This document shows, one piece after another, positions 1 to 64,000 of a stretch of DNA of 64,000 bases. Made by a program: the position numbers and the translations under genes. The notes below the pieces were generated by a model. That model saw only the letters and a list, made by a program, of their open reading frames with translations. It was not told the origin of the DNA and ran no database searches. The stretch's first letter is position 1, and every line of letters begins with the position of its first letter. Source of the stretch: Hyperoplus lanceolatus (Eukaryota > Chordata > Actinopteri > Uranoscopiformes > Ammodytidae); assembly GCA_026929865.2 (NCBI GenBank), contig JAMBYZ020000005.1, forward strand, positions 56,953-120,952, read 5' to 3'.

Positions 1-1555
1 TTCAGGACATTCTGATGTGTAGTTTCAGAAATAAAAGCCCACTAGATATTGAAAATATGAGAGAAATTAGATATGATTTTGGATTCAATTTAAAAAAAAA
101 CGCCCTGTTATTCCAGAGTCATTCCTCTCCAGGGTCATAGTTCACGACCCCATGAGGCCACACAAAATGTTTCAGGACATTCTGATGTGTAGTTTCAGAA
201 TAAAAGCCCACTAGATATTGAAAATATGAGAGAAATTAGATATGATTTTGGATTCAATTTTAAAAAAACGCCCTGTTATTCCAGAGTCATTCCACTCCAG
301 GGTCATAGTTCACGACCCCATGAGGCCCCACAAACAGTTTCAGGACATTCTGATGTTTAGTTTCAGAATAAAAGCCCACTAGATATTGAAAATATGAGAG
401 AAATTAGATATGATTTTGGATTCAATTTTTAAAAAAACGCCCTGTTATTCCAGAGTCATTCCACTCCAGGGTCTTAGTTCACGACCCCATGAGGCCACAC
501 AAACAGTTTCAGGACATTCTGATGTGTAGTTTCAGAATAAAAGCCCACTAGATATTGAAAATATGAGAGAAATTAGATATGATTTTGGATTCAATTTTTA
601 AAAAAACGCCCTGTTATTCCAGAGTCATTCCACTCCAGGGTCATAGTTCACGACCCCATGAGGCCACACAAAAAGTTTCAGGACATTCTGATGTGTAGTT
701 TCAGAATAAAAGCCCACTAGATATTGAAAATATGAGAGAAATTACATATGATTTTGGATTCAATTTTTTTAAAAAACGCCCTGTTATTCCAGAGTCATTC
801 CACTCCAGGGTCATAGTTCACGACCCCATGAGGCCAAACAAACAGTTTCAGGACATTCTGATGTGTAGTTTCAGAATAAAAGCCCACTAGATATTGAAAA
901 TATGAGAGAATTTAGATATGATTTTGGATTCAATTTAAAAAAAAAAACGCCCTGTTATTCCAGAGTCATTCCACTCCAGGGTCATAGTTCACGACCCCAT
1001 GAGGTCCCCCAAGAAGTTTCAGGACATTCTGATGTTTAGTTTCAGAATAAAAGCCCACTAGATATTGAAAATATGAGAGAAATTAGATATGATTTTGGAT
1101 TCTATTTAAAAAAAAACGCCCTGTTATTCCAGAGTCATTCCACTCCAGGGTCATAGTTCACAACCCCATGAGGTCCCCCAAGAACGTTCAGGACATTCTG
1201 ATGTGTAGTTTCAAAATTAAAGCGCACAAGATATTGAAAATGTGAGAGAAATTACATATGATTTTGGATTAAATTTAAAAAAAAAACGCCCTGTTATTCT
1301 AGAGTCATTCCACTCCAGGGTCATAGTTCACGACCCCCTGAGGCCACAAAAACAGTTTCAGGACATTCTGATGTGTAGTTTCAAAATAAAAGCCCACTTG
1401 ATATTGAAAATATGAGAGAAATTAGATATGACTTTGGATTCAATTTTTAAAAAAAAACACCCTGTTATTCCAGAGTCATTCCACTCCAGGGTCATAGTTC
1501 ACAACCCCATGAGGTCACACAAGAAGATTCAGGACATTCTGATGTGTACTTTCAG
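1..1555 (+). repeat. Direct tract D0 (~9.2 monomers, open at left)
   Basis: Starts inside the array. One monomer near 1213-1227 has the AAATTAAAGCGCAC variant seen again at 47.5, 48.8 and 56.0 kb. The last monomer has the junction-A type AAGAAGATTCAGG but keeps CTCCAGGG instead of CTGCAGGG. Confidence 0.93.
508..676 (+). repeat. Exemplar direct monomer (169 bp)
   Basis: A typical monomer for reference. From its start it carries the TTCAGGACATTCTGATGTG box, AATAAA at 536-541, TTAGATATGATTTTGGATTC, a T5/A7 run at 595-606, CGCCCTGTTATTCCAGAG, GGGTCATAGTTCA at 638-650 and CCCCATGAGGCCACAC. The main variable positions across the array are CACGACC/CACAACC, GAGGCCACAC/GAGGTCCCCC/GAGGTCACCC, TTCAGAATAAAA/TTCAAAATAAAA and the A-run length. 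The combinations of these states define the subtypes used below to trace duplications. Confidence 0.95.
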
Positions 1556-1811
1556 GGTGACCTCATGGGGTGTCCTCTGGGGGTAAATAAAGCCCCTAGA
1601 GTTGAATAACTCTGAGAGAAATTACAGGGCGTTTTTTTTGGATTCAATCAAAACAAAAATCTCCCTGTTATTTCCAGAGTCATTCCACTCCAGGGTCATA
1701 GTTCACAACCCCATGAGGTCACACTAGAAGTGTCAGGACATGTCTGATGTGTAGTTTTCTGAATAAAAGCGCAATAGATATTGAAATCATATCTAATGCA
1801 GCCATATTTTC
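1556..1811. repeat. Inverted block B1, scrambled
   Basis: Starts like junction A (GGTGACCTCATGGGG) but soon degenerates. A short - strand piece (to about 1639) contains GTTGAATAACTCTG and ACAGGGCG. It is followed by a + strand monomer with many small differences (about 1640-1782), then a stub of - strand AAATCATATCTAAT. It ends in CATATTTTC and then AAAATTAGATAATTTTTTGG, the junction B variant shared with blocks at 37141 and 60317. Mixed orientation inside one block occurs nowhere else in the window. Confidence 0.75.
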
Positions 1812-3130
1812 AAAATTAGATAATTTTTTGGATTCAATTAAAAAAAAAACGCCCTGTTATTCCAGAGTCATTCCACTCCAGGGTCATAGTTCACAACCCC
1901 ATGAGGTCCCCCAAGAAGTTTCAGGACATTCTGATGTGTAGTTTCAGAATAAAAGCCCACTAGATATTGAAAATATGAGAGAAATTAGATATGATTTTGG
2001 ATTCAATTTAAAAAAAACGCCCTGTTATTCCAGAGTCATTCCACTCCAGGGTCATAGTTCACAACCCCATGAGGTCACCCAAGAAGTTTCAGGACATTCT
2101 GATGTGTAGTTTCAAATAAAAGCCCACTAGATATTGAAAATATGAGAGAAATTAGATATGATTTTGGATTCAATTTAAAAAAAAAACGCCCTGTTGTTCT
2201 AGAGTCATTCCACTCCAGGGTCATAGTTCACGACCCCATGAGGCCACACAAAAAGTTTCAGGACATTCTGATGTGTAGTTTCAGAATAAAAGCCCACTAG
2301 ATATTGAAAAATATGAGAGAAATTAGATATGATTTTGGATTCAATTTAAAAAAAACGCCCTGTTATTCCAGAGTCATTCCACTCCAGGGTCATAGTTTAC
2401 AACCCCATGAGGTCCCCCAAGAAGTTTCAGGACATTCTGATGTGTAGTTTCAAAATAAAAGCCCACTAGATATTGAAAATATGAGAGAAATTAGATATGA
2501 TTTTGGATTCAATTTAAAAAAAAACGCCCTGTTATTCCAGAGTCATTCCACTCCAGGGTCATAGTTCACGACCCCATGAGGTCCCCCAAGAAGTTTCAGG
2601 ACATTCTGATGTGTAGTTTCAGAATAAAAGCCCACTAGATATTGAAAATATGAGAGAAATTAGATATGATTTTGGATTCAATTTTAAAAAAAAAAGCCCT
2701 TTTCTTCCAGAGTCATTCCACTCCAGGGTCATAGTTCACAACCCCATGAGGTCACCCAAGAAGTTTCAGGACATTCTGATGTGTAGTTTCAAAATAAAAG
2801 CCCACTAGATATTGAAAATATGAGAGAAATTAGATATGATTTTGGATTCAATTTTTTAAAAAATGCCCTGTTATTCTAGAGTCTTTCCACTCCAGGGTCA
2901 TAGTTCACGACCCCATGAGGCCACACAAAAAGTTTCAGGACATTCTGATGTGTAGTTTCAGAATAAAAGCCCACTAGATATTGAAAATATGAGAGAAATT
3001 AGATATGATTTTGGATTCAATTTTTAAAAAAACACCCTGTTATTCCAGATTCATTCCACTGCAGGGTCATAATTCTCAACCCCATGAGGTCACACAAGAA
3101 GATTCAGGACATTCTGATGTGTACTTTCAG
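1812..3130 (+). repeat. Direct tract D1 (~7.8 monomers)
   Basis: Opens with the AGATAATTTTTTGG variant. It includes two monomers with unusual CGCCCT replacements (AAAAAGCCCTTTTCTTCC near 2690 and AATGCCCTG near 2862). It closes with the CTGCAGGG junction monomer at about 3055. Confidence 0.92.
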
Positions 3131-3379
3131 GGTGACCTCATGGGGTGACCTCATGGGTTGTGAACTTTGACCCTGGAGTTGAAATGGACTCTGGATCAAA
3201 AGCGGTTTTTAATTGAATCCAAAATCATATAAAAACTGCGCCTTTTATTCCTAGAATTCCTACATCAGGGAATGTCCTGAAACTTTGTGTGCCCATGGGG
3301 TGCCCTGGAGTGGAATTTTCTGGAATAACAGGGCGTTTTTTTTAAATCCAAAATCATATCTAATTTCTCTCATATTTTC
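3131..3379 (-). repeat. Inverted block B2, 249 bp, degenerate centre
   Basis: The ends are normal, but about 3185-3315 has many substitutions and missing bases, for example AAAACTGCGCCTTTTATTCC. The spacer before junction B reads TTTCTCTC rather than TTTGTCTC. Confidence 0.85.
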
Positions 3380-3851
3380 AAAATTAGATATGATTTTGGA
3401 TTCAATAAAAAAAAACGCCCTGTTATTCCAGAGTCATTCCACTCCAGGGTCATAGTTCACAACCCCATGAGGTCCCCCAAGAAGTTTCAGGACATTCTGA
3501 TGTGTAGTTTCAAAATAAAAGCCCACTAGATATTGAAAATATGAAAGAAATTAGATATGATTTTGGATTCAATTTAAAAAAAAACGCCCTGTTATTCCAG
3601 AGTCATTCCACTCCAGGGTCATAGTTCACAACCCCATGAGGTCACCCAAGAAGTTTCAGGACATTCTGATGTGTAGTTTCAAAATAAAAGCCCACTAGAT
3701 ATTGAAAATATGAGAGAAATTAGATATGATTTTGGATTCAATTTAAAAAAAAACGCCCTGTTATTCCAGAGTCATTCCACTGCAGGGTCATAATTCACAA
3801 CCCCATGAGGTCACACAGGAAGATTCAGGACATTCTGATGTTTACTTTCAG
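3380..3851 (+). repeat. Direct tract D2 (~2.8 monomers)
   Basis: At 472 bp this is one of the common short tracts. The junction monomer reads CACAGGAAGATTC and TGTTTACTTTCAG instead of CACAAGAAG and TGTGTAC. Confidence 0.92.
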
Positions 3852-4135
3852 GGTGACATCATGGGGTGACCTCATGGGGTTGTGAACTTTGACCCTGGAG
3901 TTGAATGACTCTGGAATAACAGGGCGTTTTTAAATTGAATCCAAAATCATATCTAATTTCTCTCATATTTTCAATATCAAGTGGGCTTTTATTCTGAAAC
4001 TACACATCAGAATGTCCTGACCCGTTTTGTGTGTCTCATGGGGTCGTGAACATGACCCTGGAGTGGAATTTTCTGGAATAACAGGGCCGTTTTTTTATTG
4101 AATCCGAAATCATATCTAATTTGTCTCATATTTTC
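3852..4135 (-). repeat. Inverted block B3 (284 bp)
   Basis: The first 13-mer is altered to TGACATCATGGGG. The middle lacks part of the usual AAACTTTGTGTGTGGCC (reads CCCGTTTTGTGTGTCTC). Junction B reads AAAATAAGATATG. Confidence 0.9.
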
Positions 4136-4779
4136 AAAATAAGATATGATTTTGGATTCAATAAAAAAAAAAAACGCCCTGTTATTCCAGAGTCATTCCA
4201 CTCCAGGGTCATAGTTCACAACCCCTTGAGGTCCCCCAAGAAGTTTCAGGACATTCTGATGTATAGTTTCAAAATAAAAACCCACTAGTTATTGAAAATA
4301 TGAGAGAAATTAGATATGATTTTGGATTCAATTTTAAAAAAAACGCCCTGTTATTCCAGAGTCATTCCACTCCAGGGTCATAGTTCACGACCCCATGAGG
4401 CCACACAAAACGTTTCAGGACATTCTGATGTGTAGTTTCAGAATAAAAGCCCACTAGATATTGAAAATATGAGAGCAATTAGATATGATTTTGGATTCAA
4501 TTTTTGAAAAAACGCCCTGTTATTCCAGAGTCATTCCACTCCAGGGTCATAGTTCACGACCCCATGAAGCCACACAAAAAGTTTCAGGATATTCTGATGT
4601 GTACTTTCAAAATAAAAGCCCACTTGATATTGAAAATATCAGAGAAATTAGATATGATTTTGGATTCAATTTTTAAAAAAACACCCTGTTATTCCAGAGT
4701 CATTCCACTGCAGGGTCATAATTCACAACCCCATGAGGTCACACAAGAAGATTCAGGACATTCTGATGTGTACTTTCAG
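4136..4779 (+). repeat. Direct tract D3 (~3.8 monomers)
   Basis: The last full monomer (from about 4560) is the 'GAAGCC' subtype: CCATGAAGCCACAC, TTTCAGGATATTC, TGTACTTTCAAAATAAAAG, CACTTGATATTGAAAATATC. This subtype repeatedly occupies the place just before the junction monomer. The part from about 4390 is duplicated at about 6927-7316. Confidence 0.92.
4390..4779 (+). repeat. Duplicated segment, copy 1 (partner 6927-7316)
   Basis: Two and a half monomers ending at junction A. They include the rare AATTTTTGAAAAAACGCC and the GAAGCC subtype, and recur essentially unchanged 2,537 bp downstream. Confidence 0.85.
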
Positions 4780-5535: not shown

Positions 5536-5658
5536 GGTGACCTCATGGGGGTGACCTCATGGGGTTGTGAACTTTGACCCTGGAGTTGAATGACTCTGGA
5601 ATAACAGGGGTTTTTTTAAATTGAATCCGAAATCATATCTAATTTGTCTCATATTTTC
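5536..5658 (-). repeat. Inverted block B5, short form (123 bp)
   Basis: Lacks one whole monomer of inverted sequence. The first TTGAATCC is followed directly by GAAATCATATCTAATTTGTCTC, the sequence normally found one monomer further on. Both junctions are intact. It looks like a deletion between the two TTGAATCC repeats inside a normal block (inference). Confidence 0.9.
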
Positions 5659-7316
5659 AAAATTAGATATGATTTTGGATTCAATTAAAAAAAAAAAACG
5701 CCCTGTTATTCCAGAGTCTTTCCACTCCAGGGTCATAGTTCACAACCCCATGAGGTCCCCCAAGAAGTTTCAGGACATTCTGATGTGTAGTTTCAAAATA
5801 AAAGCCCACTAGATATTGAAAATATGAGAGAAATTAGATATGATTTTGGATTCAATTTAAAAAAAAACGCCCTGTTATTCCAGAGTCATTCCACTCCAGG
5901 GTCATAGTTCACGACCCCATGAGGTCCTACAAGAACTTTCAGGACATTCTGATGTGTAGTTTCAGAATAAAAGCCAACTAGATATTGAAAATATGAGAGA
6001 AATTAGATATGATTTTGGATTAAATTTAAAAAAAAAACGCCCTGTTATTCCAGAGTCATTCCACTCCAGGGTCATAGTTCACAACCCCATGAGGTCCCCC
6101 AAGAAGTTTCAGGACATTCTGATGTGTAGTTTCAGAATAAAAGCCCACTAGATATTGAATAATGAGAGAAATTAGATATGATTTTGGATTCAATTAAAAA
6201 AAAAACGCCCTGTTATTCCAGAGTCATTCCACTCCAGGGTCATAGTTCACGACCCCATGAGGTCCCCCAAGAAGTTTCAGGACATTCTGATGTGTAGTTT
6301 CAGAATAAAAGCCCACTAGATATTGAAAATATGAGAGAAATTAGATATGATTTTGGATTCAATTTAAAAAAAAACGCCCTGTTATTCCAGAGTCATTCCA
6401 CTCCAGGGTCATAGTTCACAACCCCATGAGGTCACCCAAGAAGTTTCAGGACATTCTGATGTGTAGTTTCAAAATAAAAGCCCACTAGATATTGAAAATA
6501 TGAGAGAAATTAGATATGATTTTGGATTCAATTTTTAAAAAAACGCCCTGTTATTCCAGAATCATTCCACTCCAGGGTCATAGTTCACGACCCCATGAGG
6601 CCACACAAAAAGTTTCAGGACATTCTGATGTTTAGTTTCAGAATAAAAGCCCACTAGATATTGAAAATATGAGAGCAATTAGATATGATTTTGGATTCAA
6701 TTTTTAAAAAAACGCCCTGTTATTCCAGAGTCATTCCACTCCAGGGTCATAGTTCACGACCCCATGAAGCCACACAAAAAGTTTCAGGACATTCTGATGT
6801 GTAGTTTCAAAATAAAAGCCCACTAGATATTGAAAATATGAAAGAAATTAGATATGATTTTGGATTCAGTTTTAAAAAAACGCCCTGTTATTCCAGAGTC
6901 ATTCCACTCCAGGGTCATAGTTCACAACCCCATGAGGCCACACAAAAAGTTTCAGGACATTCTGATGTGTAGTTTCAGAATAAAAGCCCACTAGATATTG
7001 AAAATATGAGAGCAATTAGATATGATTTTGGATTCAATTTTTGAAAAAACGCCCTGTTATTCCAGAGTCATTCCACTCCAGGGTCATAGTTCACGACCCC
7101 ATGAAGCCACACAAAAAGTTTCAGGATATTCTGATGTGTACTTTCAAAATAAAAGCCCACTTGATATTGAAAATATCAGAGAAATTAGATATGATTTTGG
7201 ATTCAATTTTTAAAAAAACACCCTGTTATTCCAGAGTCATTCCACTGCAGGGTCATAATTCACAACCCCATGAGGTCACACAAGAAGATTCAGGACATTC
7301 TGATGTGTACTTTCAG
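5659..7316 (+). repeat. Direct tract D5 (~9.8 monomers)
   Basis: Near 6155 GATATTGAATAATGAG lacks three bases of the usual GAAAATATGAG. The tail from about 6927 repeats the end of D3. The final bases TTTCAGGGGG lead into a degraded block. Confidence 0.92.
6927..7316 (+). repeat. Duplicated segment, copy 2 (partner 4390-4779)
   Basis: Matches the end of tract D3, including the AATTTTTGAAAAAACGCC variant and the GAAGCC subtype up to TGTACTTTCAG. The sequences then part: copy 1 enters an almost normal inverted block and copy 2 a corrupted one. Confidence 0.85.
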
Positions 7317-7569
7317 GGGGCATGGGTGACCTCATGGGGTTGTGAACTTTGGCCCTGGAGGTTGAAAAATAAAAAAAGGGAAGAAAAAAAATATCTAATT
7401 TCTCTCATGTTTTCAATATCAAGTGGGCTTTTATTCTGAAACTACACATCAGAATGTCCTGAAACTTGTGTGTGGGGGGTTATGGGGTGAGAAATCATGA
7501 ACCTGGAATTTTCTGGAATAACAGGTTTTGGTGAATCGGGAAATCATATCTAATTTGTCTCATATTTTC
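7317..7569 (-). repeat. Inverted block B6, degraded (253 bp)
   Basis: Only one 13-mer remains recognisable (GTGACCTCATGGGG). Non-satellite runs such as AAAAAAAGGGAAGAAAAAAAA (in part, near 7370-7395) and GGGGGGTTATGGGG replace expected sequence. GGGCG is lost from the second half. Junction B itself is normal. Confidence 0.8.
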
Positions 7570-8038
7570 AAAATTAGATATGATTTTGGATTCAATAAAA
7601 AAAAAAACGACCTGTTATTCCAGAGTCATTCCACTCCAGGGTCATAGTTTACAACCCCATGGGGTCCCCCAAGAAGTTTCAGGACATTCTGATGTGTAGT
7701 TTCAAAATAAAAGCCCACTAGATATTGAAAATATGAAAGAAATTAGATATGATTTTGGATTCAATTAAAAAAAAAGCCGTTTTTTTTTTGGGGATTTTTT
7801 CCTCTTCAGGGTTATTGTTCCCGGCCCCATGAGGCCAAACAAAATGTTTTGGGGTTTTGTTGGGTGGGTTTTAAAAAAAAAACACTATATATTATATATA
7901 TGAGAATTAGATATGATTTTGGATTCAATTTTTAAAAAAACGCCCTGTTATTCCAGAGTCATTCCACTGCAGGGTCATAATTCACAACCCCATGAGGTCA
8001 CACAAGAAGATTCAGGACATTCTGATGTGTACTTTCAG
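7570..8038 (+). repeat. Direct tract D6 (~2.8 monomers) with one ruined monomer
   Basis: The first monomer has CCATGGGGTCCCCC, a marker shared with tracts at 11.35, 23.3, 26.5 and 59.6 kb, so the tract belongs to that group. The second monomer (about 7765-7905) is heavily altered and listed separately. Confidence 0.88.
7765..7905 (+). repeat. Degenerate monomer
   Basis: Retains the order of the monomer (CTTCAGGGTTATTGTTCCC, CCCCATGAGGCC, then a TATATATATGAGAATTAG piece) but is loaded with T-, G- and A-runs. Expected bases are replaced by G or T, for example GTTTTGGGGTTTTGTTGGG. Flanking monomers are clean. It looks more like poor consensus than normal divergence (inference). Confidence 0.75.
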
Positions 8039-8302
8039 GGTGACCTCATGGGGTGACCTCATGGGGTTGTGAACTTTGACCCTGGAGTTGAATGACTATG
8101 GAATACGGAAATTGAATCCAAAATCAGATCTAATTTCTCATGATTTTGAAGTGGGCTTTTATTCTGAAACTACACATCAGAATGTCCTGAAACTTTGTGT
8201 GGCCTCATGGGGTCGTGAACTATGACCCTGGAATGGAATTTTTTGGAATAAGGGTGTTTTTTAATTGAATCCGAAATCATATCTAATTTGTCTCATATTT
8301 TC
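8039..8302 (-). repeat. Inverted block B7 (264 bp)
   Basis: About 20-25 bases are missing, mostly at 8095-8150, where ATAACAGGGCG and the CATATTTTCAATATC part are damaged. Both junctions are intact apart from a final AGATATTATTTTGG. Confidence 0.85.
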
Positions 8303-11345: not shown

Positions 11346-11818
11346 AAAATTAGATATGATTTTGGATTCAATAAAAAAAAAACGCCCTGTTATTCCAGAG
11401 TCATTCCACTCCAGGGTCATAGTTTACAACCCCATGGGGTCCCCCAAGAAGTTTCAGGACATTCTGATGTGTAGTTTCAAAATAAAAGCCCACTAGATAT
11501 TGAAAATATGAAAGAAATTAGATATGATTTTGGATTCAATTAAAAAAAAAACGCCCTGTTATTCCAGAGTCATTCCACTCCAGGGTCATAGTTCACGACC
11601 CCAAGAGGCCACACAAAAAGTTTCAGGACATTCTGATGTGTAGTTTCAGAATAAAAGCCCACTAGATATTGAAAATATGAGAGCAATTAGATATGATTTT
11701 GGATTCAATTTAAAAAAAAACGCCCTGTTATTCCAGAGTCATTCCACTGCAGGGTCATAATTTACAACCCCATGAGGTCACACAAGAAGATTCAGGACAT
11801 TCTGATGTGTACTTTCAG
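11346..11818 (+). repeat. Direct tract D9 (~2.8 monomers)
   Basis: Marked by ATAGTTTACAACC with CCATGGGGTCCCCC, then CCAAGAGGCCACAC (11601), then CTGCAGGGTCATAATTTAC. The same three marks occur in order at 26515-26988, 15,170 bp downstream. Confidence 0.93.
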
Positions 11819-12106
11819 GGTGACCTCATGGGGTGACCTCATGGGGTTGTGAACTTTGACCCTGGAGTTGAATGACTCTGGAATAACAGGGCGTTTTTTT
11901 AAATTGAATCCAAAATCATATCTAATTCTCTCATATTTTCAATATCAAGTGGGCTTTTATTCTGAAACTACACATCATAATGTCCTGAAACTTTGTGTGT
12001 GGCCTCATGGGGTCGTGAACTATGACCCTGGAATGGAATTTTCTGGAATAACAGGGCGTTTTTTTTTAATTGAATCGAAATCATATCTAATTTGTCTCAT
12101 ATTTTC
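11819..12106 (-). repeat. Inverted block B10 (288 bp)
   Basis: Has TAATTCTCTC, ACATCATAATG and GAATCGAAATC. Followed by the GAGTCGTTCC monomer, which also follows the blocks at 26989, 30094 and 31185. Confidence 0.92.
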
Positions 12107-13571
12107 AAAATTAGATATGATTTTGGATTCAATAAAAAAAAAAACGCCCTGTTATTCCAGAGTCGTTCCACTCCAGGGTCATAGTTCACAACCCCATGAG
12201 GTCCCCCAAGAAGTTTCAGGACATTCTGATGTGTAGTTTCAAAATAAAAGCCCACTAGATATTGAAAATATGAGAGAAATTAGATATGATTTTGGATTCA
12301 ATTTTTAAAAAAACTCCCTGTTATTCCAGAGTCATTCCACTCCAGGGTCCTAGTTCAAGACCCCATGAGGCCACACACAAAGTTTCAGGACATTTTGATG
12401 TGTAGTTTCAGAATAAAAGCCCACTAGATATTGAAAATATGAGAGAAATTAGATATGATTTTGGATTCAATTTTTAAAAAAACTCCCTGTTATTCCATAG
12501 ACATTCCACTCCAGGGTCATAGTTCACAACCCCATGAGGTCACCCAAGAAGTTTCAGGACATTCTGATGTGTAGTTCCAAAATAAAAGCCCACTAGATAT
12601 TGAAAATATGAGAGAAATTAGATATGATTTTGGATTCAATTTTTAAAAAAACGCCCTGTTATTCCAGAGTCATTCCACTCCAGGGTCATAGTTCACGACC
12701 CCATGAGGCCACACAAAAGGTTTCAGGACATTCTGATGTGTAGTTTCAGAATAAAAGCCCACTAGATATTGAAAATATGAGAGAAATTAGATATGATTTT
12801 GGATTCAATTTTTTAAAAAACGCCCTGTTATTCCAGAGTCATTCCACTCCAGGGTCATAGTTCACGACCCCATGAGGCCACAAAAAAAGTTTCAGGACAT
12901 TCTGATGTGTAGTTTCAGAATAAAAGCCCACTAGATATTGAAAATATGAGAAAAATTAGATATGATTTTGGATTCAATTTTAAAAAAAACGCCCTGTTAT
13001 TCCAGAGTTATTCCACTCCAGGGTCATAGTTCACAACCCCATGAGGTCCCCCAAGAAGTTTCAGGACATTCTGATGTGTAGTTTCAGAATAAAAGCCCAC
13101 TAGATATTGAAAATATGAGAGAAATTAGATATGATTTTGGATTCAATTTTTAAAAAAACGCCCTGTTATTCCAGAGTCATTCCACTCCAGGGTCATAGTT
13201 CACGACCCCATGAGGTCCCCCAAGAAGTTTCAGGACATTCTGATGTGTAGTTTCAGAATAAAAGCCCACTAGATATTGAAAATATGAGAGAAATTAGATA
13301 TGATTTTGGATTCAATTTAAAAAAAAACGCCCTGTTATTCCAGAGTCATTCCACTCCAGGGTCATCCAAGAAGTTTCAGGACATTCTGATGTGTAGTTTC
13401 AAAATAAAAGCCCACTAGATATTGAAAATATGAGAGAAATTAGATATGATTTTGGATTCAATTTTAAAAAAAACGCCATGTTATTCCAGAGTCATTCCAC
13501 TGCAGGGTCATAATTCACAACCCCATGAGGTCACACAAGAAGATTCAGGACATTCTGATGTGTACTTTCAG
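12107..13571 (+). repeat. Direct tract D10 (~8.8 monomers less a small deletion)
   Basis: Opens with GAGTCGTTCC (about 12160) and GGGTCCTAGTTCAAGACC. AAAAGGTTTCAGG is near 12715 and GAGTTATTCC near 13005. One monomer has lost about 24 bp at 13366 (GGGTCAT joins CCAAGAAG). Adding that back gives the expected 8.8-monomer length. Confidence 0.93.
13340..13381 (+). repeat. Monomer with ~24 bp internal deletion
   Basis: CTCCAGGGTCAT runs straight into CCAAGAAGTTTCAGG, omitting the AGTTCACAACCCCATGAGG part. It is the only clean short deletion of this kind in a direct monomer. The loss removes one arm of the junction-A type dyad. Confidence 0.85.
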
Positions 13572-13860: not shown

Positions 13861-13877
13861 AAAATTAGATATGATTT
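13832..13877. repeat. Exemplar junction B: tight hairpin
   Basis: The inverted block returns to + orientation here. AAATCATATCTAATTT (13832-13847) pairs perfectly with AAATTAGATATGATTT (13862-13877) around a 14 nt loop (GTCTCATATTTTCA). With mismatches the stem extends outward into the TTGAATCC/GGATTCAA segment and the T-run/A-run. This short-loop dyad recurs about once per higher-order unit and could extrude as a cruciform in supercoiled DNA (inference). Confidence 0.93.
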
Positions 13878-18048: not shown

Positions 18049-18333
18049 GGTGACCACATGGGGTGATCTCATGGGGTTGTGAACTTTGACCCTGGAGTTG
18101 AATGACTCTGGATAACAGGGCGTTTTTTAAATTGAATCCAAAATCATATCTAATTTCTCTCATTTTCAATATCAAGTGGGCTTTTATTCTGAATCTACAC
18201 ATCAGAATGTCCTGAAACTTTGTGTGTGGCCTCATGGGGTCGTGAACTATGCCCCTGGAGTGGCATTTTTCTGGAATAACAGGGCATTTTTTTTTAATTG
18301 AATCCGAAATCATATCTAATTTGTCTCATATTT
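18049..18333 (-). repeat. Inverted block B14 with shortened junction B
   Basis: First 13-mer reads TGACCACATGGGG. At junction B the loop and the AAAATTAGATAT arm are missing, so CATATTT runs straight into GATTTTGGATTC. The dyad is replaced by ATTGAATCCGAAATCA against TGATTTTGGATTCAAT with a loop of about 21 nt. The block at 39220 shares both changes. Confidence 0.92.
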
Positions 18334-40638: not shown

Positions 40639-41276
40639 GGTGACCTCATGGGGTGACCTCATGGGGTTGTGAACTTTGACCCTGGAGATGAATGACTCTG
40701 GAATAACAGGGCGTTTTTTTTAAATTGAATCCAAAATCATATCTAATTTCTCTCATATTTTCAATATCGAGTGGGCTTTATTCTGAAACTACACATCAGA
40801 ATGTCCTGAAACTTTGTGTGTGGTCATGGGGTCGTGAACTATGACCCTGGAGTGGAATTTTTCTGGAATAACAGGGCGTTTTTTTTTAATTGAATTCGAA
40901 ATCATATCTAATTCGTCTCATATTTTGAAAAATTAGATAATTTTTTGGACTCAATTAAAAAAAAAACGCCCTGTTATTCCAGAGTCATTCCACTCCAGGG
41001 TCATAGTTCACAACCCCATGAGGTCCCCCAAGAAGTTTCAGGACATTATGATGTGTAGTTTCAAAATAAAAGCCCACTAGATATTGAAAATATGAAAGAA
41101 ATTAGATATGATTTTGGATTCAATTTAAAAAAAAACGCCCTGTTATTCCAGAGTCATTCCACTCCAGGGTCATAGTTCACGACCCCATGAGGCCACACAA
41201 AAAGTTTCAGGACATTCTGATGTGTAGTTTCAGAATAAAAGCCCACTAGATATTGAAAATATGAGAGCAATTAGAT
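40344..41276. repeat. 0.93 kb tandem duplication, copy 1
   Basis: One full higher-order unit: GAAGCC monomer, junction monomer, B30 and about two direct monomers. It is repeated at once with the same private marks (GAGATGAATGAC, ATTTTGAAAAATTAG, GACATTATGATG). Confidence 0.87.
40639..40927 (-). repeat. Inverted block B30 (289 bp)
   Basis: Has GGAGATGAATGAC, CAATATCGAGTGGGC and the TTTTGAAAAATTAGATAA junction B, followed by GGACTCAATT. Confidence 0.92.
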
Positions 41277-41571
41277 ATGATTTTGGATTCAATTTTTAAA
41301 AAAACGCCCTGTTATTCCAGAGTCATTCCACTCCAGGGTCATAGTTCACGACCCCATGAAGCCACACAAAAAGTTTCAGGATATTCTGATGTGTACTTTC
41401 AAAATAAAAGCCCACTTGATATTGAAAATATCAGAGAAATTAGATATGATTTTGGATTCAATTTTTAAAAAAACACCCTGTTATTCCAGAGTCATTCCAC
41501 TGCAGGGTCATAATTCACAACCCCATGAGGTCACACAAGAAGATTCAGGACATTCTGATGTGTACTTTCAG
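40928..41571 (+). repeat. Direct tract D30 (~3.8 monomers)
   Basis: Contains GACATTATGATG near 41043 and a GAAGCC-subtype monomer from 41356. Almost identical to the next tract. Confidence 0.93.
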
Positions 41572-42215
41572 GGTGACCTCATGGGGTGACCTCATGGGGT
41601 TGTGAACTTTGACCCTGGAGATGAATGACTCTGGAATAACAGGGCGTTTTTTTTAAATTGAATCCAAAATCATATCTAATTTCTCTCATATTTTCAATAT
41701 CGAGAGTGGGCTTTTATTCTGAAACTACACATCAGAATGTCCTGAAGCTTTGTGTGTGGCCTCATGGGGTCGTGAACTATGACCCTGGAGTGGAATTTTT
41801 CTGGAATAACAGGGCGTTTTTCTTTTAATTGAATCCGAAATCATATCTAATTCGTCTCATATTTTGAAAAATTAGATAATTTTTTGGACTCAATTAAAAA
41901 AAAAACGCCCTGTTATTCCAGAGTCATTCCACTCCAGGGTCATAGTTCACAACCCCATGAGGTCCCCCAAGAAGTTTCAGGACATTATGATGTGTAGTTT
42001 CAAAATAAAAGCCCACTAGATATTGAAAATATGAAAGAAATTAGATATGATTTTGGATTCAATTAAAAAAAAAATGCCCTGTTATTCCAGAGTCATTCCA
42101 CTCCAGGGTCATAGTTCACGACCCCATGAGGCCACACAAAAAGTTTCAGGACATTCTGATGTATAGTTTCAGAATAAAAGCCCACTAGATATTGAAAATA
42201 TGAGAGCAATTAGAT
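41277..42215. repeat. 0.93 kb tandem duplication, copy 2
   Basis: Matches copy 1 with a handful of changes, such as CGAGAGTGGGC, CTGAAGCTTTG and GATGTATAG. The low divergence points to a very recent whole-unit duplication (inference). Confidence 0.87.
41572..41866 (-). repeat. Inverted block B31 (295 bp, the longest)
   Basis: As B30 but with two extra bases in CAATATCGAGAGTGGGC, CTGAAGCTTTG and a C inside the second T-run (TTTTTCTTTT). Confidence 0.92.
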
Positions 42216-42510
42216 ATGATTTTGGATTCAATTTTTAAAAAAACGCCCTGTTATTCCAGAGTCATTCCACTCCAGGGTCATAGTTCACGACCCCATGAAG
42301 CCACACAAAAAGTTTCAGGATATTCTGATGTGTACTTACAAAATAAAAGCCCACTTGATATTGAAAATATGAGAGAAATTAGATACGATTTTGGATTCAA
42401 TTTTAAAAAAAACGCCCTGTTATTCCAGAGTCATTCCACTGCAGGGTCATAATTCACAACCCCATGAGGTCACACAAGAAGATTCAGGACATTCTGATGT
42501 GTACTTTCAG
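41867..42510 (+). repeat. Direct tract D31 (~3.8 monomers)
   Basis: Repeats D30 up to the GAAGCC monomer. It then differs: TGTACTTACAAAATAAAAG and TATGAGAG in place of TATCAGAG, followed by GATACGATTTTGG. Confidence 0.93.
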
Positions 42511-50758: not shown

Positions 50759-52824
50759 AAAATTAGATATGATTTTGGATTCAATTAAAAAAAAAACGCC
50801 CTGTTATTCCAGAGTCATTCCACTCCAGGGTCATAGTTCACAACCCCATGACGTCCCCCAAGAAGTTTCAGGACATTCTGATGTGTAGTTTCAAAATAAA
50901 AGCCCACTAGATATTGAAAATATGAGAGAAATTAGATATGATTTTGGATTAAATTTTTAAAAAAACTCCCTGTTATTCCAGAGTCATTCCACTCCAGGGT
51001 CATAGTTCACGACCCCATGAGGCCACACAAAAAGTTTCAGGACATTCTGATGTGTAGTTTCAGAATAAAAGCCCACTAGATATTGAAAATATGAGAAAAA
51101 TTAGATATGATTTTGGATTCAATTTTAAAAAAAACGCCCTGTTATTCCAGAGTCATTCCACTTCAGGGTCATAGTTAACAACCCCATGAGGTCCCCCAAG
51201 AAGTTTCAGTACATTCTGATGTGTACTTTCAAAATAAAAGCCCACTTGATATCGAAAATATCAGAGAAATTAGATATGATTTTGGATTCAATTTTTAAAA
51301 AAACGCCCTGTTATTCCAGAGTCATGTCACTCCAGGGTCATAGTTCACGACCCCATGAGGCCACAAAATCAGTTTCAGGACATTCTGATGTGTAGTTTCA
51401 GAATAATAGCCCACTTGATATTGGAGTCAGTTGCCCGGGCAAAAGTTTAGGACATTGATGGTAGTTTCAGAATAAAAGCCCACTAGTATTGAAAATATGA
51501 GAGAAATTAGATATGATTTTGGATTCAATTTAAAAAAAAACGCCCTGTTATTCCAGAGTCATTCCACTCCAGGGTCATAGTTCACAACCCCATGAGGTCA
51601 CACAAGAAGTTTCAGGACATTCTGATGTGTAGTTTCAAAATAAAAGCCCACTTGATATTGAAAATATGAGAGAAATTAGATATGATTTTGGATTCAATTT
51701 TTAAAAAAAACGCCCTGTTATTCCAGAGTCATTCCACTCCAGGGTCATAGTTCACAACCCCATGAGGTCACACAAAAAGTTTCAGGACATTCTGATGTGT
51801 ACTTTCAAAATAAAAGCCCACTTGATATCGAAAATATCAGAGAAATTAGATATGATTTTGGATTAAATTTTAAAAAAAAACGCCCTGTTATTCCAGAGTC
51901 ATTCCACTCCAGGGTCATAGTTCACAACCCCATGAGGTCCCCCAAGATGTTTCAGGACATTCTGATGTGTAGTTTCAAAATAAAAGCCCACTAGATATTG
52001 AAAATATGAGAGAAATTAGATATGATTTTGGATTCAATTTTTAAAAAAACAGCCCTGTTTTTCCAGAGTCATTCCACTCCAGCGTCATAGTCCACGACCC
52101 CTCGAGGCCACACAAAAGTTTCAGGACATTCTGATGTGTAGTTTCAAAATTAAAGCCCACTAGATATTGAAAATATGAGAGGAATTAGATATGATTTTGG
52201 ATTCAATTTTAAAAAAAACGCCCTGTTATTCCAGAGTCATTCCACTCCAGGGTCATAGTTCACGACCCCATGAGGCCACACAAACAGTTTCAGGACATTC
52301 TGATGTGTAGTTTCAAAATAAAAGCCCACTAGATATTGAAAATATGAGAGAAATTAGATATGATTTTGGATTCAATTTAAAAAAAAACGCCCTGTTATTC
52401 CAGAGTCATTCCACTCCAGGGTCATAGTTCACGACCCCATGAGGTCACCCAAGAAGTTTCAGGACATTCTGATGTGTAGTTTCAAAATAAAAGCCCACTA
52501 GATATTGAAAATATGAGAGAAATTAGATATGATTTTGGATTCAATTTAAAAAAAAAACGCCCTGTTATTCCAGAGTCATTCCACTCCAGGGTCATAGTTC
52601 ACGACCCCATGAGGCCACCCAAGAAGTTTCAGGACATTCTGATGTGTAGTTTCAAAATAAAAGCCCACTTGATATTGAAAATATGAGAGAAATTAGATAT
52701 GATTTTGGATTCAATTTTTAAAAAAACGCCCTGTTATTCCAGAGTCATTCCACTGCAGGGTCATAATTCACAACCCCATGAGGTCACACAAGAAGTTTCA
52801 GGACATTCTGATGTGAACTTTCAG
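50759..52824 (+). repeat. Direct tract D38 (~12.8 monomers with one deleted monomer)
   Basis: Begins like D37 (CCATGACGTCCCCC at 50847, offset 2,616 bp). It contains the lesion at 51421-51446, CTCGAG at 52101 and several GATATCGAAAATATC monomers. Restoring the missing 97 bp gives the expected 12.8-monomer length. Confidence 0.92.
51373..51446 (+). repeat. Truncated monomer with foreign palindrome
   Basis: After CCACTTGATATTG comes GAGTCAGTTGCCCGGGCAAA, then TTTAGGACATTGATGG. Spacing between successive GGACAT boxes is about 72 bp instead of 169. TTGCCCGGGCAA (51431-51442) is a perfect 12 bp palindrome absent from every other monomer. About 97 bp are lost. It may be a repair scar or an assembly join. 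Confidence 0.85.
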
Positions 52825-53105: not shown

Positions 53106-54258
53106 AAAATTAGATATGATTTTGGATTCAATAAAAAAAAAACGCCCTGTTATTCCAGAGTCATTCCACTCCAGGGTCATAGTTCACAACCCCATGAGGT
53201 CCCCCAAGAAGTTTCAGGACATTCTGATGTGTAGTTTCAAAATAAAAGCCCACTAGATATTGAAAATATGAGAGAAATTAGATATGATTTTGGATTCAAT
53301 TTTTAAAAAACGCCCTGTTATTCCAGAGTCATTCCACTCCAGGGTCATAGTTCACGACCCCATGAGGCCACACAAAAAGTTTCCAGGACATTCTGATGTG
53401 TAGTTTCAAAATAAAAGCCCACTAGATATTGAAAATATGAGAGAAATTAGATATGATTTTGGATTCAATTTTAAAAAAAAACGCCCTGTTATTCCAGAGT
53501 CATTCCACTCCAGGGTCATAGTTCACGACCCCATGAGGCCACAAAAAAGTTTCAGGACATTCTGATGTGTAGTTTCAAAATTAAAAGCCCACTAGATATT
53601 GAAAATATGAGAGAAATTAGATATGATTTTGGATTACATTTTTAAAAAAACGCCCTGTTATTCCAGAGTCATTCCACTCCAGGGTCATAGTTCACGACCC
53701 CATGAGGCCACAAAAACAGTTTCAGGACATTCTGATGTGTAGTTTCAGAATAAAAGCCCACTAGATATTGAAAATATGAGAGAAATTAGATATGATTTTG
53801 GATTCAATTTTAAAAAAAAACGCCCTGTTATTCCAGAGTCATTCCACTCCAGGGTCATAGTTAACAACCCCATGAGGTCACCCAAGAAGTTTCAGGACAT
53901 TCTGATGTGTAGTTTCAAAATAAAAGCCCACTAGATATTGAAAATATGAGAGAAATTAGATATGATTTTGGATTCAATTTTTAAAAAAACGCCCTGTTAT
54001 TCCAGAGTCATTCCACTCCAGGGTCATAGTTCACGACCCCATGAGGCCACCCCAAGAAGTTTCAGGACATTCTGATGTGTAGTTTCAGAATAAAAGCCCA
54101 CTAGATATTGAAAATATGAGAGAAATTAGATATGATTTTGGATTCAATTTTTAAAAAAAACGCCCTGTTATTCCAGAGTCATTCCACTCCAGGGTCATAG
54201 TCCACAACCCCATGAGGTCACACAAGAAGTTTCAGGACATTCTGATGTGTAGTTTCAG

Positions 54259-54269
54259 GTTGGGTGGGG
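54259..54269 (+). other. 11 nt G-rich insertion
   Basis: GTTGGGTGGGG sits between AGTTTCAG and AATAAAAGCCC in an otherwise normal monomer. A similar GTTGGGTGGG occurs in the degenerate monomer near 7860 at the corresponding place, which suggests a shared cause. Confidence 0.8.
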
Positions 54270-54879
54270 AATAAAAGCCCACTAGATATTGTAAAATATG
54301 AGAGAAATTAGATATGATTTTGGATTCAATTTTTAAAAAAAAACGCCCTGTTATTCCAGAGTCATTCCACTCCAGGGTCATAGTTCACAACCCCATGAGG
54401 TCACCCAAGAAGTTTCAGGACATTCTGATGTGTAGTTTCAAAATAAAAGCCCACTAGATATTGAACATATGAGAGAAATTAGATATGATTTTGGATTCAA
54501 TTTTTAAAAAAACGCCCTGTTATTCCAGAGTCATTCCACTCCAGGGTCATAGTTCACGACCCCATGAGGCCACACAAAAAGTTTCAGGACATTCTGATGT
54601 GTAGTTTCAGAATAAAAGCCCACTAGATATTGAACATATGAGAGAAATTAGATATGATTTTGGATTACAATTTAAAAAAAAACGCCTTGTTATTCCAGAG
54701 TCATTCCACTCCAGGGTCATAGTTCACGACCCCATGAGGCCACCCAAGAAGTTTCAGGACATTCTGATGTGTAGTTTCAGAATAAAAGCCCACTAGATAT
54801 TGAAAATATGAGAGAAATTAGATATGATTTTGGATTCAATTTTTTAAAAAAACGCCCTGTTATTCCAGAGTCATTCCAC

Positions 54880-55457
54880 TCCAGGGTCATAGTTCACGAC
54901 CCCATGAAGCCACACAAAAAGTTTCAGGATATTCTGATGTGTACTTTCAAAATAAAAGCCCACTTGATACTGAAAATATGAGAGAAATTAGATATGATTT
55001 TGGATTCAATTTTTAAAAAAACGCCCTGTTATTCCAGAGTCATTCCACTCCAGGGTCATAGTTAACAACCCCATGAGGTCACCGAAGAAGTTTCAGGACA
55101 TTCTGATGTGTAGTTTCAAAATAAAAGCCCACTAGATATTGAAAATATGAGAGAAATTAGATATGATTTTGGATTCAATTTTTAAAAAAACGCCCTGTTA
55201 TTCCAGAGTCATTCCACTCCAGGGTCATAGTTCACAACCCCATGAGGTCCCCCAAGAACTTTCAGGACATTCTGATGTGTAGTTTCAAAATAAAAGCCCA
55301 CTTGATATTGAAAATATCAGAGAAATTAGATATGATTTTGGATTCAATTTTTAAAAAAACACCCTGTTATTCCAGAGTCACTCCACTGCAGGGTCATAAT
55401 TCACAACCCCATGAGGTCACACAAGAAGATTCAGGACATTCTGATGTGTACTTTCAG
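54880..55457 (+). repeat. Duplicated segment, copy 1 (partner 56490-57070)
   Basis: GAAGCC monomer with CTTGATACTGAAAATATG, then GTTAACAACC with CACCGAAGAAG, a GAACTTTCAGG monomer and a junction monomer with GAGTCACTCC. The same sequence of marks recurs 1,612 bp downstream. Confidence 0.85.
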
Positions 55458-59268: not shown

Positions 59269-59561
59269 GGTGACCTCATGGGGTGACCTCATGGGGTTGT
59301 GAACTTTGACCCTGGAGTTGAATGACTCTGGAATAACAGGGCGTTTTTTTTAAATTGAATCCAAAATCATATCTAATTTCTCTCATATTTTCAATATCAA
59401 GTGGGCTTTTATTCTGAAACTACACATCAGAATGTCCTGAAACTTTGTGTGTGGCCAAATGGGGTCGTGAACTATGACCCTGGAATGGAATTTTTCTGGA
59501 ATAACAGGGCGTTTTTTTTTCAATTGAATCCGAAATCATATCTAATTTGTCTCATATTTTC
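59269..59561 (-). repeat. Inverted block B43 (293 bp)
   Basis: Has GTGGCCAAATGGGG and a C after the second T-run (TTTTTTTTTCAATTG). Confidence 0.92.
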
Positions 59562-60036
59562 AAAATTAGATATGATTTTGGATTCAATAAAAAAAAAAAC
59601 GCCCTGTTATTCCAGAGTCATTCCACTCCAGGGTCATAGTTTACAACCCCATGGGGTCCCCCAAGAAGTTTCAGGACATTCTGATGTGTAGTTTCAAAAT
59701 AAAAGCCCACTAGATATTGAAAATATGAAAGAAATTAGATATGATTTTGGATTCAATTAAAAAAAAAAACGCCCTGTTATTCCAGAGTCATTCCACTCCA
59801 GGGTCATAGTTCACGACCCCATGAGGCCACACAAAAAGTTTCAGGACATTCTGATGTGTAGTTTCAGAATAAAAGCCCACTAGATATTGAAAATATGAGA
59901 GCAATTAGATATGATTTTGGATTCAATTTTTAAAAAAACACCCTGTTATTCCAGAGTCATTCCACTGCAGGGTCATAATTCACAACCCCATGAGGTCACA
60001 CAAGAAGATTCAGGACATTCTGATGTGTACTTTCAG
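59562..60036 (+). repeat. Direct tract D43 (~2.8 monomers)
   Basis: Carries GTTTACAACCCC and CCATGGGGTCCCCC plus GAGAGCAATTAG, the arrangement of D17 at 23.3 kb, 36 kb away. Confidence 0.93.
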
Positions 60037-60317
60037 GGTGACCTCATGGGGTGACCTCATGGGGTTGTGAACTTTGACCCTGGAGTTGAATAACTCTGGA
60101 ATAACAGGCGTTTTTTTAAATTGAATCAAAATCATACTCTAATTTCTCACATATTTTCAATATCAAGTGGGCTTTTATTCTGAAACTACACATCGAAATG
60201 TCCTGAACTGTGTGTGGCCTCATGGGGTCGTGAACTATGACCCTGGAGTGGTATTTTCTGGAATAACAGGGCGTTTTTTTAGTGAATCGAAATCATATCT
60301 AATTGTCTCATATTTTC
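60037..60317 (-). repeat. Inverted block B44 (281 bp)
   Basis: Has TTGAATAACTC, CATACTCTAATTTCTCACAT, ACATCGAAATG and the AGATAATTTTTTGG junction B seen after B1 and B27. Confidence 0.9.
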
Positions 60318-61636
60318 AAAATTAGATAATTTTTTGGATTCAATTAAAAAAAAAACGCCCTGTTATTCCAGAGTCATTCCACTCCAGGGTCATAGTTCAC
60401 AACCCCATGAGGTCCCCCAAGAAGTTTCAGGACATTCTGATGTGTAGTTTCAAAATAAAAGCCCACTAGATATTGAAAATATGAGAGAAATTAGATATGA
60501 TTTTGGATTCAATTTTTTAAAAAACGCCCTGTTATTCCAGAGTCATTCCACTCCAGGGTCATAGTTCACGACCCCATGAGGCCACACAAAAAGTTTCAGG
60601 ACATTCTGATGTGCAGTTTCAAAATAAAAGCCCACTAGATATTGAAAATATGAGAAAAATTAGATATGATTTTGGATTCAATTTAAAAAAAAACGCCCTG
60701 TTATTCCAGAGTCATTCCACTCCAGGGTCATAGTTCACAACCCCATGAGGTCCCCCAAGAAGTTTCAGGACATTCTGATGTGTAGTTTCAGAATAAAAGC
60801 CCACTAGATATTGAAAATATGAGAGATATTAGATATGATTTTGGATTCAATTTAAAAAAAAACGCCCTGTTATTCCAGAGTCATTCCACTCCAGGGTCAT
60901 AGTTCACGACCCCATGAGGTCCCCCAAGAAGTTTCAGGACATTCTGATGTGTAGTTTCAGAATAAAAGCCCACTAGATATTGAAAATATGAGAGAAATTA
61001 GATATGATTTTGGATTCAATTTAAAAAAAAAACGCCCTGTTATTCCAGAGTCTTCAACTCCAGGGTCATAGTTCACAACACCATGAGGTCACCCAAGAAG
61101 TTTCAGGACATTCTGATGTGTAGTTTCAGAATAAAAGCCCACTAGATATTGAAAATATGAGAGAAATTAGATATGATTTTGGATTAAATTTTTAAAAAAA
61201 CGCCCTGTTATTCCAGAATCATTCCACTCCAGGGTCATAGTTCACGACCCCATGAGGCCACACAAAAAGTTTCAGGACATTCTGATGTGTAGTTTCAGAA
61301 TAAAAGCCCACTAGATATTGAAAATATGAGAGCAATTAGATATGATTTTGGATTCAATTTTTGAAAAAACGCCCTGTTATTCCAGAGTCATTCCACTCCA
61401 GGGTCATAGTTCACGACCCCATGAAGCCACACAAAAAGTTTCAGGACATTCTGATGTGTAGTTTCAGAATAAAAGCCCACTAGATATTGAAAATATGAGA
61501 GCAATTAGATATGATTTTGGATTCAATTTTTAAAAAAACACCCTGTTATTCCAGAGTCATTCCACTGCAGGGTCATAATTCACAACCCCATGAGGTCACA
61601 CAAGAAGATTCAGGACATTCTGATGTGTACTTTCAG
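60318..61636 (+). repeat. Direct tract D44 (~7.8 monomers)
   Basis: Has GAGAGATATTAG and a small deletion near 61051 (GAGTCTTCAACTCCAGGG), CACAACACCATGAGG, and AATTTTTGAAAAAACGCC with a GAAGCC monomer as in D3. The GAAGCC monomer here keeps TTCAGGACATTC. Confidence 0.92.
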
Positions 61637-61926
61637 GGTGACCTCATGGGGTGACCTCATGCGGTTGTGAACTTTGACCCTGGAGTTGAATGACTCTGGA
61701 ATAACAGGGCGTTTTTTTTTAATTGAATCCAAAATTATATCTATTTTCTCTCATATTTTCAATATCAAGTGGGCTTTTATTCTGAAACTACACATCAGAA
61801 TGTCCTGAAACTTTGTGTGTGGCCTAATGGGGTCGTGAACTATGACCCTGGAGTGGAATGACTCTGGAATAACAGGGCGTTTTTTTTAATTGAATCGAAA
61901 TCATATCTAATTTGTCTCATATTTTC
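61637..61926 (-). repeat. Inverted block B45 (290 bp)
   Basis: Shares CATGCGGTTGTG with B4. The second half reads GGAGTGGAATGACTCTGG, the full monomer form, where other blocks have GGAATTTTCTGG. It therefore keeps an ancestral state or was converted by a direct monomer. Confidence 0.92.
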
Positions 61927-62400
61927 AAAATTAGATATGATTTTGGATTCAATAAAAAAAAAAACGCCCTGTTATTCCAGAGTCATTCCACTCCAGGGTC
62001 ATAGTTCACAACCCCATGAGGTCCCCCAAGAAGTTTCAGGACATTCTGATGTGTAGTTTCAAAATAAAAGCCCACTAGATATTGAAAATATGAGAGTAAT
62101 TAGATATGATTTTGGATTCAATTTAAAAAAAAACGCCCTGTTATTCCAGAGTCATTCCACTCCAGGGTCATAGTTCACAACCCCACGAGGTCCCCCAAGA
62201 ACTTTCAGGACATTCTGATGTGTAGTTTCAAAATAAAAGCCCACTAGATATTGAAAATATGAGAGAAATTAGATACGATTTTGGATTCAATTTAAAAAAA
62301 AACGCCCTGTTATTCCAGAGTCATTCCACTGCAGGGTCATAATTCACAACCCCATGAGGTCACACAAGAAGATTCAGGACATTCTGATGTGTACTTTCAG
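61927..62400 (+). repeat. Direct tract D45 (~2.8 monomers)
   Basis: Has GAGAGTAATTAG, CCACGAGGTCCCCC and GATACGATTTTGG, resembling D4 at 5.06 kb. Confidence 0.93.
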
Positions 62401-62689
62401 GGTGACCTCATGGGGTGACCGCATGGGGTTGTGAACTTTGACCCTGGAGTTGAATGACTCTGGAATAACAGGGCGTTTTTTAAATTGAATCCAAAATCAT
62501 ATCTAATTTCTCTCATATTTTCAATATCAAGTGGGCTTTTATTCTGAAACTACACATCAGAATGTCCTGAAACTTTGTGTGTGGCCTCATGGGGTCGTGA
62601 ACTATGACCCTGGAGTGGAATTTTTCTGGAATAAAAGGGCGTTTTTTTTTAATTGAATCGAAATCATATCTAATTTGTCTCATATTTTC
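62401..62689 (-). repeat. Inverted block B46 (289 bp, last in window)
   Basis: Has GACCGCATGGGG and AATAAAAGGGCG. Confidence 0.92.
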
Positions 62690-64000
62690 AAAATTAGATA
62701 TGATTTTGGATTCAATTAAAAAAAAACGCCCTGTTATTCCAGAGTCATTCCACTCCAGGGTCATAGTTCACAACCCCATGAGGTCCCCCAAGAAGTTTCA
62801 GGACATTCTGATGTGTAGTTTCAAAATAAAAGCCCACTAGATATTGAAAATATTAGAGAAATTAGATATGATTTTGGATTCAATTTAAAAAAAAACGCCC
62901 TGTTATTCCAGAGTCATTCCACTCCAGGGTCATAGTTCACGACCCCATGAGGTCCCTCAAGAACTTTCAGGACATTCTGATGTGTAGTTTCAGAATAAAA
63001 GCCCACTAGATATTGAAAATATGAGAGAAATTAGATATGATTTTGGATTAAATTAAAAAAAAAAACGCCCTGTTATTCCAGAGTCATTCCACTCCAGGGT
63101 CATAGTTCACAACCCCATGAGGTCCCCCAAGAAGTTTCAGGACATTCTGATGTGTAGTTTCAGAATAAAAGCCCACTAGATATTGAAAATATGAGAGAAA
63201 TTAGATATGATTTTGGATTCAATTTAAAAAAAAAACGCCCTGTTATTCCAGAGTCATTCCACTCCAGGGTCATAGTTCACGACCCCATGAGGCCACACAA
63301 AAAGTTTCAGGACATTCTTATGTGTAGTTTCAGAATAAAAGCCCACTAGATATTGAAAATATGAGAGCAATTAGATATGATTTTGGATTCAATTTAAAAA
63401 AAAACGCCCTGTTATTCCAGAGTCATTCCACTCCAGGGTCATAGTTCACAACCCCATGAGGTCCCCCAAGAAGTTTCAGGACATTCTGATGTGTAGTTTC
63501 AGAATAAAAGCCCACTAGATATTGAAAATATGAGAGAAATTAGATATGATTTTGGATTCAATTTAAAAAAAAACGCCCTGTTATTCCAGAATCATTCCAC
63601 TCCAGGGTCATAGTTCACGACCCCATGAGGTCCCCCAAGAAGTTCCAGGACATTCTGATGTGTAGTTTCAGAATAAAAGCCCACTAGATATTGAAAATAT
63701 GAGAGAAATTAGATATGATTTTGGATTCAATTTTTAAAAAACCGCCCTGTTATTCCAGAGTCATTCCACTCCAGGGTCATAGTTCACGACCCCATGAGGT
63801 CCCCCAAGAAGTTTCAGGACATTCTGGTGTGTAGTTTCAGAATAAAAGCCCACTAGATATTGAAAATATGAGAGAAATTAGATATGATTTTGGATTCAAT
63901 TTAAAAAAAAACGCCCCCTTATTCCAGAGTCATTCCACTCCAGGGTCATAATTCACAACCCCATGAGGTCAGCCAAGAAGTTTCAGGACATTCCGATGTG
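62690..64000 (+). repeat. Direct tract D46 (at least 7.8 monomers, open at right)
   Basis: Runs off the window. Marks: AATATTAGAG, GAGGTCCCTCAAG, ATTCTTATGTG, AAGTTCCAGG, CTGGTGTGTAG, CGCCCCCTTATTCC. The last monomer reads CATAATTCACAACCCC, the start of a junction-like state, but GTCAGCCAAGAAG and not the CACACAAGAAGATT form. Confidence 0.93.

Follow-up and report, generated by a model that had tools for sequence, protein, structure and literature searches.

Reversed blocks with shared breakpoints in a fish satellite array and their probable descent from one fold-back cassette

Higher-order repeats (HORs) of the alpha satellite type are composite monomer units that spread by unequal exchange. 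In the satellites of the beetle Tribolium madens, according to the available part of the report (PMC13081366), orientation changes thousands of times, at a small number of highly conserved sites. The subunits at these inversion sites are diverged and carry class variants, a likeness of 98% is reported for the sites, and the arrays have a conserved frame, a varying number of monomers, sequences that are mixed between contigs and long predicted hairpins. The same part of the report describes reversed subunits inside the unit of the satellite TmSat2, with inverted repeats of ~300 bp, and cites a 1061-bp satellite with inverted segments of ~470 bp in Tribolium brevicornis. Here we describe a 64,000-bp stretch of the genome of the fish Hyperoplus lanceolatus (hereafter the window), in which a directly repeated 169-bp satellite is interrupted by short reversed blocks. 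From sequence comparison, we consider it quite likely that these blocks derive from one ancestral fold-back cassette that spread by homologous exchange and also seeded reversals of array orientation.

The window lies at the end of JAMBYZ020000005.1 (hereafter C27), a contig of 120,952 bp in an assembly of 807 Mb and 527 contigs, and takes up the last 64,000 bases of that contig. Contig C527 of the assembly codes for mitochondrial proteins of vertebrate type and reads as that of a ray-finned fish. Decomposition against both strands of the monomer identifies the satellite throughout, arranged head to tail in + orientation, and the same satellite is also found in the first 3 kb of C27 and in the 10 kb upstream of the window. 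There are 46 reversed blocks, as counted by the first of their two junctions, which are termed A and B (a prime marks the opposite orientation). A fuzzy word search recovers 45 of the 46 A junctions, the one missed being at 7317. The block length is 277-294 bp in 41 of the 46 representatives, 265 bp at 8039 and, in a clean copy with one monomer less, 124 bp at 5536-5659, and three blocks (1556, 3131 and 7317) are scrambled. Thus, the number and the near-constant length of the blocks given by a first-pass annotation of the window are borne out. Of the 52 reversed runs, 46 reach 60 bp, but this figure matches the number of blocks by chance (block 3131 contributes two of these runs, whereas block 1556 contributes none). 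The 42 window blocks that are 260 bp or longer have a mean pairwise identity of 96.4%.

Common descent is indicated by the breakpoints. In intact blocks, junction A joins +134 to -99 and carries a direct duplication of 13-14 bp, and junction B joins -155 to +0. Both breakpoints recur in all 42 window blocks that reach 260 bp, although B is slightly shifted in four of them (a 10-bp loss at 18049 and 39220, and 2-3 bases at 40639 and 41572). A larger sample, drawn from 42 stretches including the window and totalling 193 kb, has 213 strand changes that are flanked by 60 bp or more on both sides; 203 of these are A or B in one orientation or the other, and two of the remaining ten are B with a 10-bp loss. 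Among the strand changes with a shorter side, 20 of 144 are A or B; the other 124, judged by reading them, lie mostly within scrambled copies or misaligned pieces.

The monomers that flank the blocks are marked as well. The truncated 135-bp monomer ahead of A (R0) carries four variants that are rare in inner monomers, namely 65G (89% versus 1%), 76A (95% versus 1%), 106A (93% versus 0%) and 128C (100% versus 8%), as counted in 44 R0 copies and 79 inner monomers with phases 22-38 excluded. These variants become roughly rarer with distance from A. Because the breakpoints, the duplication at A and the R0 variants are common to the copies, the intact blocks are, judged by sequence, evidently copies of one ancestral rearrangement.

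When monomers at the same position are compared across tracts, identity is 97.4% for the first monomer past B (L0) and 96.9% for R0, versus 94.9% for random pairs, and the other positions (left index 1-7 and right index 1-7) range from 94.1 to 96.0%. This places the travelling unit at about 593 bp, consisting of R0, the block and L0. The fading of linkage beyond R0 and L0 suggests that exchange between direct monomers erases linkage within approximately one monomer. A classical HOR, in which monomer positions are fixed, was considered and rejected, since same-position likeness is seen only at R0 and L0. Homogenisation from arm to arm within the hairpins was rejected, as the R0 differences have no mirror in the block when the consensus sequences are read.

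There are 45 tracts between the 46 blocks, and 44 of them run cleanly from B to A; the broken tract (7571-8038) was excluded from the tract statistics. The first-pass annotation had proposed that these tracts take only discrete lengths of n+0.8 monomers, with n from 1 to 13, and that they change by whole monomers without loss of phase, and both proposals are supported. In the window, n ranges from 1 to 13; when it is calculated as (length-137)/168.5, the value departs from an integer by no more than 0.1 in 41 of the 44 clean tracts. The mean deviation from an integer is 0.029 for the 44 tracts versus 0.25 under uniform lengths, and a Kolmogorov-Smirnov test gives p = 3e-32 on the assumption of independent tracts, which these are not. 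Each of the three off-ladder tracts (12108-13571, 50760-52824 and 53107-55457) has an internal phase break. Tabulation against n x 168.5 + ~137 bp in the 193-kb sample extends the ladder beyond the window: the deviation from an integer is at most 0.1 for 77 of the 82 clean tracts there, and the window itself contributes about half of these 82 tracts. Overall, there are 1-21 direct monomers between blocks in clean tracts, plus a single case of n=0. The tracts are quantised because a single cassette, copied with both of its breakpoints, recurs in a phase-keeping array. A ladder is then expected without any special process, because homologous junctions lie n monomers plus a constant apart.

Two observations on tract length stand apart. 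The n=0 tract, 135 bp between two junctions, adjoins an orientation flip on the contig designated C1 (locus L013, C1:43459297-43462325, positions 2455-2589). In addition, a spacing of n=6 (1434-1442 bp) accounts for 13 of the 91 gaps between successive exact A junctions, on C1, C8 and C14, and for two of the 44 tracts in the window, and thus tract spectra may differ among contigs.

The cassette is not confined to this contig. There are 7203 exact copies of the A 29-mer (3397 + 3806 by strand) and 8087 exact copies of the B 23-mer (3773 + 4314) in the genome, and these junction words are spread over many contigs. An exact A word that lacks the duplication occurs 144 times (55 + 89), and an exact 22-mer of the monomer occurs 36,805 + 40,912 times. 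Scaled roughly by the counts in the window, these numbers suggest ~11,000 cassettes in ~18.6 Mb of satellite. On C1 the first exact monomer among the matches listed is at 43.425 Mb of the 43.77-Mb contig, on C5 the satellite reaches the contig end, and on C14 it lies ~1 Mb from the contig end. Just past the C1 array (L042, C1:43640001-43643000) a GC-rich minisatellite (GGCACTGGCATGCCC-like) is interspersed with telomere-like TAACCC repeats. Approximately 7 kb ahead of the first exact monomer of C1 (L043, C1:43415001-43418000), 2.5 kb of N are followed by a CT-rich simple repeat.

Block identity is 96.29% both within and between contigs in a set of 83 blocks (43 from C27, 29 from C1 and 11 from three others). 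From this mixing between contigs, together with the fixed phase, the fading linkage and what is likely a local duplication of a block plus its n=3 tract at 40639-42510, we infer that ordinary homologous exchange has spread the cassette, whether through unequal crossover, gene conversion or break-induced replication. The flanks of the cassette match any monomer. Consequently, each exchange would set the cassette in the same phase, and tracts would change in whole-monomer steps.

The same process may account for larger reversals. There are four array-orientation flips on C1, with runs of 786-2480 bp; each run has an A-type junction at one end and a B-type junction at the other. The flips were recognised by the strand order of exact A copies, and flips that lack such copies may escape this approach. 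All four R0 variants are located beside the A-type junction in three of the four flips, and in flip 1 only those at 106 and 128 are found there. The four flips may mark multi-kilobase reversed subarrays on C1, and no such subarray is present in the window. Outside the flips, 84 of 87 clean blocks belong to the usual length class and three are shorter (119, 124 and 193 bp). The first-pass annotation had held that the block never expands and that the process acting on direct tracts cannot lengthen it. Neither statement is supported, since the window contains the shorter 124-bp block and, on C1, the array is turned round by runs of 786, 1174, ~2350 and ~2480 bp that have the block's own A and B junctions. 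On the evidence of these runs, we rejected the view that the block cannot be lengthened. A reversed block is homologous to oppositely oriented arrays, and exchange inside a block could therefore extend the reversal into a whole reversed array. The presence of an A-type and a B-type junction at each of the four flips points to such an extension.

How the cassette first arose is a separate matter. An ancestral fold-back rearrangement would have produced R0, ~1.7 reversed monomers and the normal monomer L0. The most likely origin is a double template switch at hairpins, a single event on a folded monomer. This is preferred because, by phase arithmetic, a simple inversion of an array stretch needs two extra deletions, of 20 and 69 bp. 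Such an inversion without template switching is possible but doubtful. The two small deletions would suffice to produce the cassette, and yet three events would be needed in place of one. Moreover, both junctions are short-loop fold-backs (14 nucleotides at B), as switching at hairpins would predict.

The predicted folding of the cassette raises the question of function. As single-stranded DNA, the cassette is predicted to form two adjacent hairpins at -249 kcal/mol with a loop of 14 nucleotides at B, whereas 100 shuffles of the cassette average -60 kcal/mol (z -35) and a plain array stretch of equal length, in which no such long hairpins are predicted, reaches -39 kcal/mol; a single cassette and a single plain stretch were used. 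Perhaps selection keeps the cassette as a structural element, for example as a putative cruciform-forming site of the centromere or pericentromere with constrained spacing. Short dyad symmetries are enriched at the centromeres of several species, and human centromeres carry CENP-B boxes instead, according to the available part of another report (PMC9070824). In the window there are 0 matches with at most one mismatch to the CENP-B box. The position of exact monomer copies near one end of C1 suggests a putative centromeric satellite. Spacings of n=1 are also scarce, with 3 of 81 tracts versus 14.8 expected under a geometric law (P = 9e-5 if the tracts were independent, which they are not, being related copies); a geometric law beginning at n=0 was compared as well. 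This scarcity may result from clonal history or from constraint. However, a strong fold follows from the reversal of the block, as it does for any long inverted repeat, and is no proof of a role. Reading of the consensus sequences reveals fixed mismatches between the arms, and thus no pressure toward perfect stems. In addition, dyad enrichment in Drosophila melanogaster is found only at the Y centromere in that same part of the report (PMC9070824). We therefore regard maintenance by selection as unlikely. The fuller proposal, in which the cassette is a maintained putative cruciform module with a minimum spacing and a (peri)centromeric role without a CENP-B box, and is also the seed for array turning, we regard as quite improbable.

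The identical phase of the copies, and the equal likeness of blocks within and between contigs, could also be produced by a mobile unit, either transposon-like or replicative, that inserts at a preferred site of the array. This is very unlikely, as there are just two open reading frames of at least 120 amino acids in the window, the shared variants reach into R0 and L0 and fade with distance as exchange predicts, and the 124-bp block and the flips resemble homologous steps. The least credible explanation is that the blocks, or the large flips, arose artificially through misassembly or through long reads that fold back. Satellites and contig ends are weak spots of assemblies, but read fold-backs would be expected at scattered points, and here 203 of 213 large strand changes fall at two breakpoints. 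The junction words are also found in thousands on many contigs. This evidence argues for the reality of the blocks more strongly than for that of the four flips.

Several points nevertheless weigh against descent of the blocks from a single exchanged cassette that also seeds flips. Eight of the 213 large strand changes involve a junction other than A or B, and the second monomer past the block has a mild subtype preference at three sites. The nearest neighbour of a block is on the same contig in 57% of cases versus 39% after shuffling (p = 0.0065), which indicates weak local structure. Within C27, the correlation of identity with distance is slight (Spearman -0.10), and in a search with 64-base words the window has only five self-matches of 700 bp or more at an identity of 97% or higher, the longest being 2682 bp. 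Exchange itself is deduced from the sequences and was not observed directly, and template switching is argued from phase arithmetic only. Finally, flips were examined on one contig, C1, and their junctions could be assembly errors.

The coordinates of the array, of a representative cassette, of atypical blocks and of the flips are collected in Table 1. No Rfam family at the gathering threshold and no tRNA was found in the window, and one word, an exact 26-mer of the monomer, gave no match in viral contigs. Monomer subtypes (GGTCACCCAAGAAG and GGCCACACAAAAAG types) occur near phase 82-134 in the window tracts, and together with a Tandem Repeats Finder period of 337-339 bp they suggest a loose dimer.

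Table 1. Locations of the array, its cassettes and the orientation flips (window positions unless a locus is named)
Feature	Location	Strand	Remark
169-bp satellite array	1..64000	+	two-strand decomposition
Example R0, 135 bp, phase 0-134	11684..11818	+	variants at 65, 76, 106, 128
Example junction A, +134 to -99	11819..11847		13-14 bp direct duplication
Example reversed block, 289 bp	11819..12107	-	~1.7 monomers
Example junction B, -155 to +0	12090..12124		hairpin with 14-nt loop
Example L0	12108..12276	+	class-enriched variants, none private to the class
Complete cassette (R0, block, L0), 593 bp	11684..12276		two adjacent hairpins predicted
Clean block one monomer shorter, 124 bp	5536..5659	-	both standard junctions present
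Scrambled block copy	1556..1812		
Scrambled block copy	3131..3380		reversed runs of 100 and 126 bp
Scrambled block copy	7317..7570		degenerate A junction
Consecutive blocks 40639 and 41572	40639..42510		a 645-bp (n=3) tract follows each; rare junction-B variant in both
Flip, + run, ~2480 bp, B to A'	L046 and L013 (C1)	+	sum over adjoining loci
Flip, + run, ~2350 bp, B' to A	L013, L047, L014 (C1)	+	sum over adjoining loci
Flip, - run, 786 bp, A to B'	L022, L023 (C1)	-	
Flip, - run, 1174 bp, A' to B	L048 (C1)	-	

The proposed history of the cassette would provide a route from a small reversal to large-scale switching of satellite orientation, in which reversed homology comes from the block and exchange accounts for the remaining steps. 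The markers carried by each copy, namely the class variants, the junction duplication and the whole-monomer tracts, would make exchange and conversion in a vertebrate satellite measurable from long reads.

Like HORs of the alpha satellite type, the arrays described here contain composite units that were spread, as we infer, by unequal exchange. Unlike those repeats, the inner monomers are hardly position-specific, and it is the reversed block that serves as the marker. Reversed segments also lie within the satellite of T. brevicornis, as cited in the available part of the T. madens report (PMC13081366), but there the inverted pair belongs to the repeat unit, whereas the blocks of H. lanceolatus are 1-21 direct monomers apart, with one case of n=0.

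The closest precedent found in the literature is T. madens, and the absence of a published fish case is not established. The first-pass annotation had called the architecture unusual; it is indeed uncommon, although the beetle satellites are a close published parallel (PMC13081366). Insofar as that report was available, the two systems share orientation changes at a few conserved junctions and a site subunit that is diverged and yet uniform within its class, as are the R0 variants here (89-100% versus 0-8%). The likeness among blocks is lower than the value reported for the beetle sites. The beetle has two satellites of other sequence, with reversed subarrays of several kb and, in TmSat2, a fixed 704-bp unit. 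In the fish, there are mostly single reversed blocks of ~290 bp in a direct array, and the flips on C1 reuse the block junctions. The likeness between beetle and fish suggests that such an organisation can arise independently.

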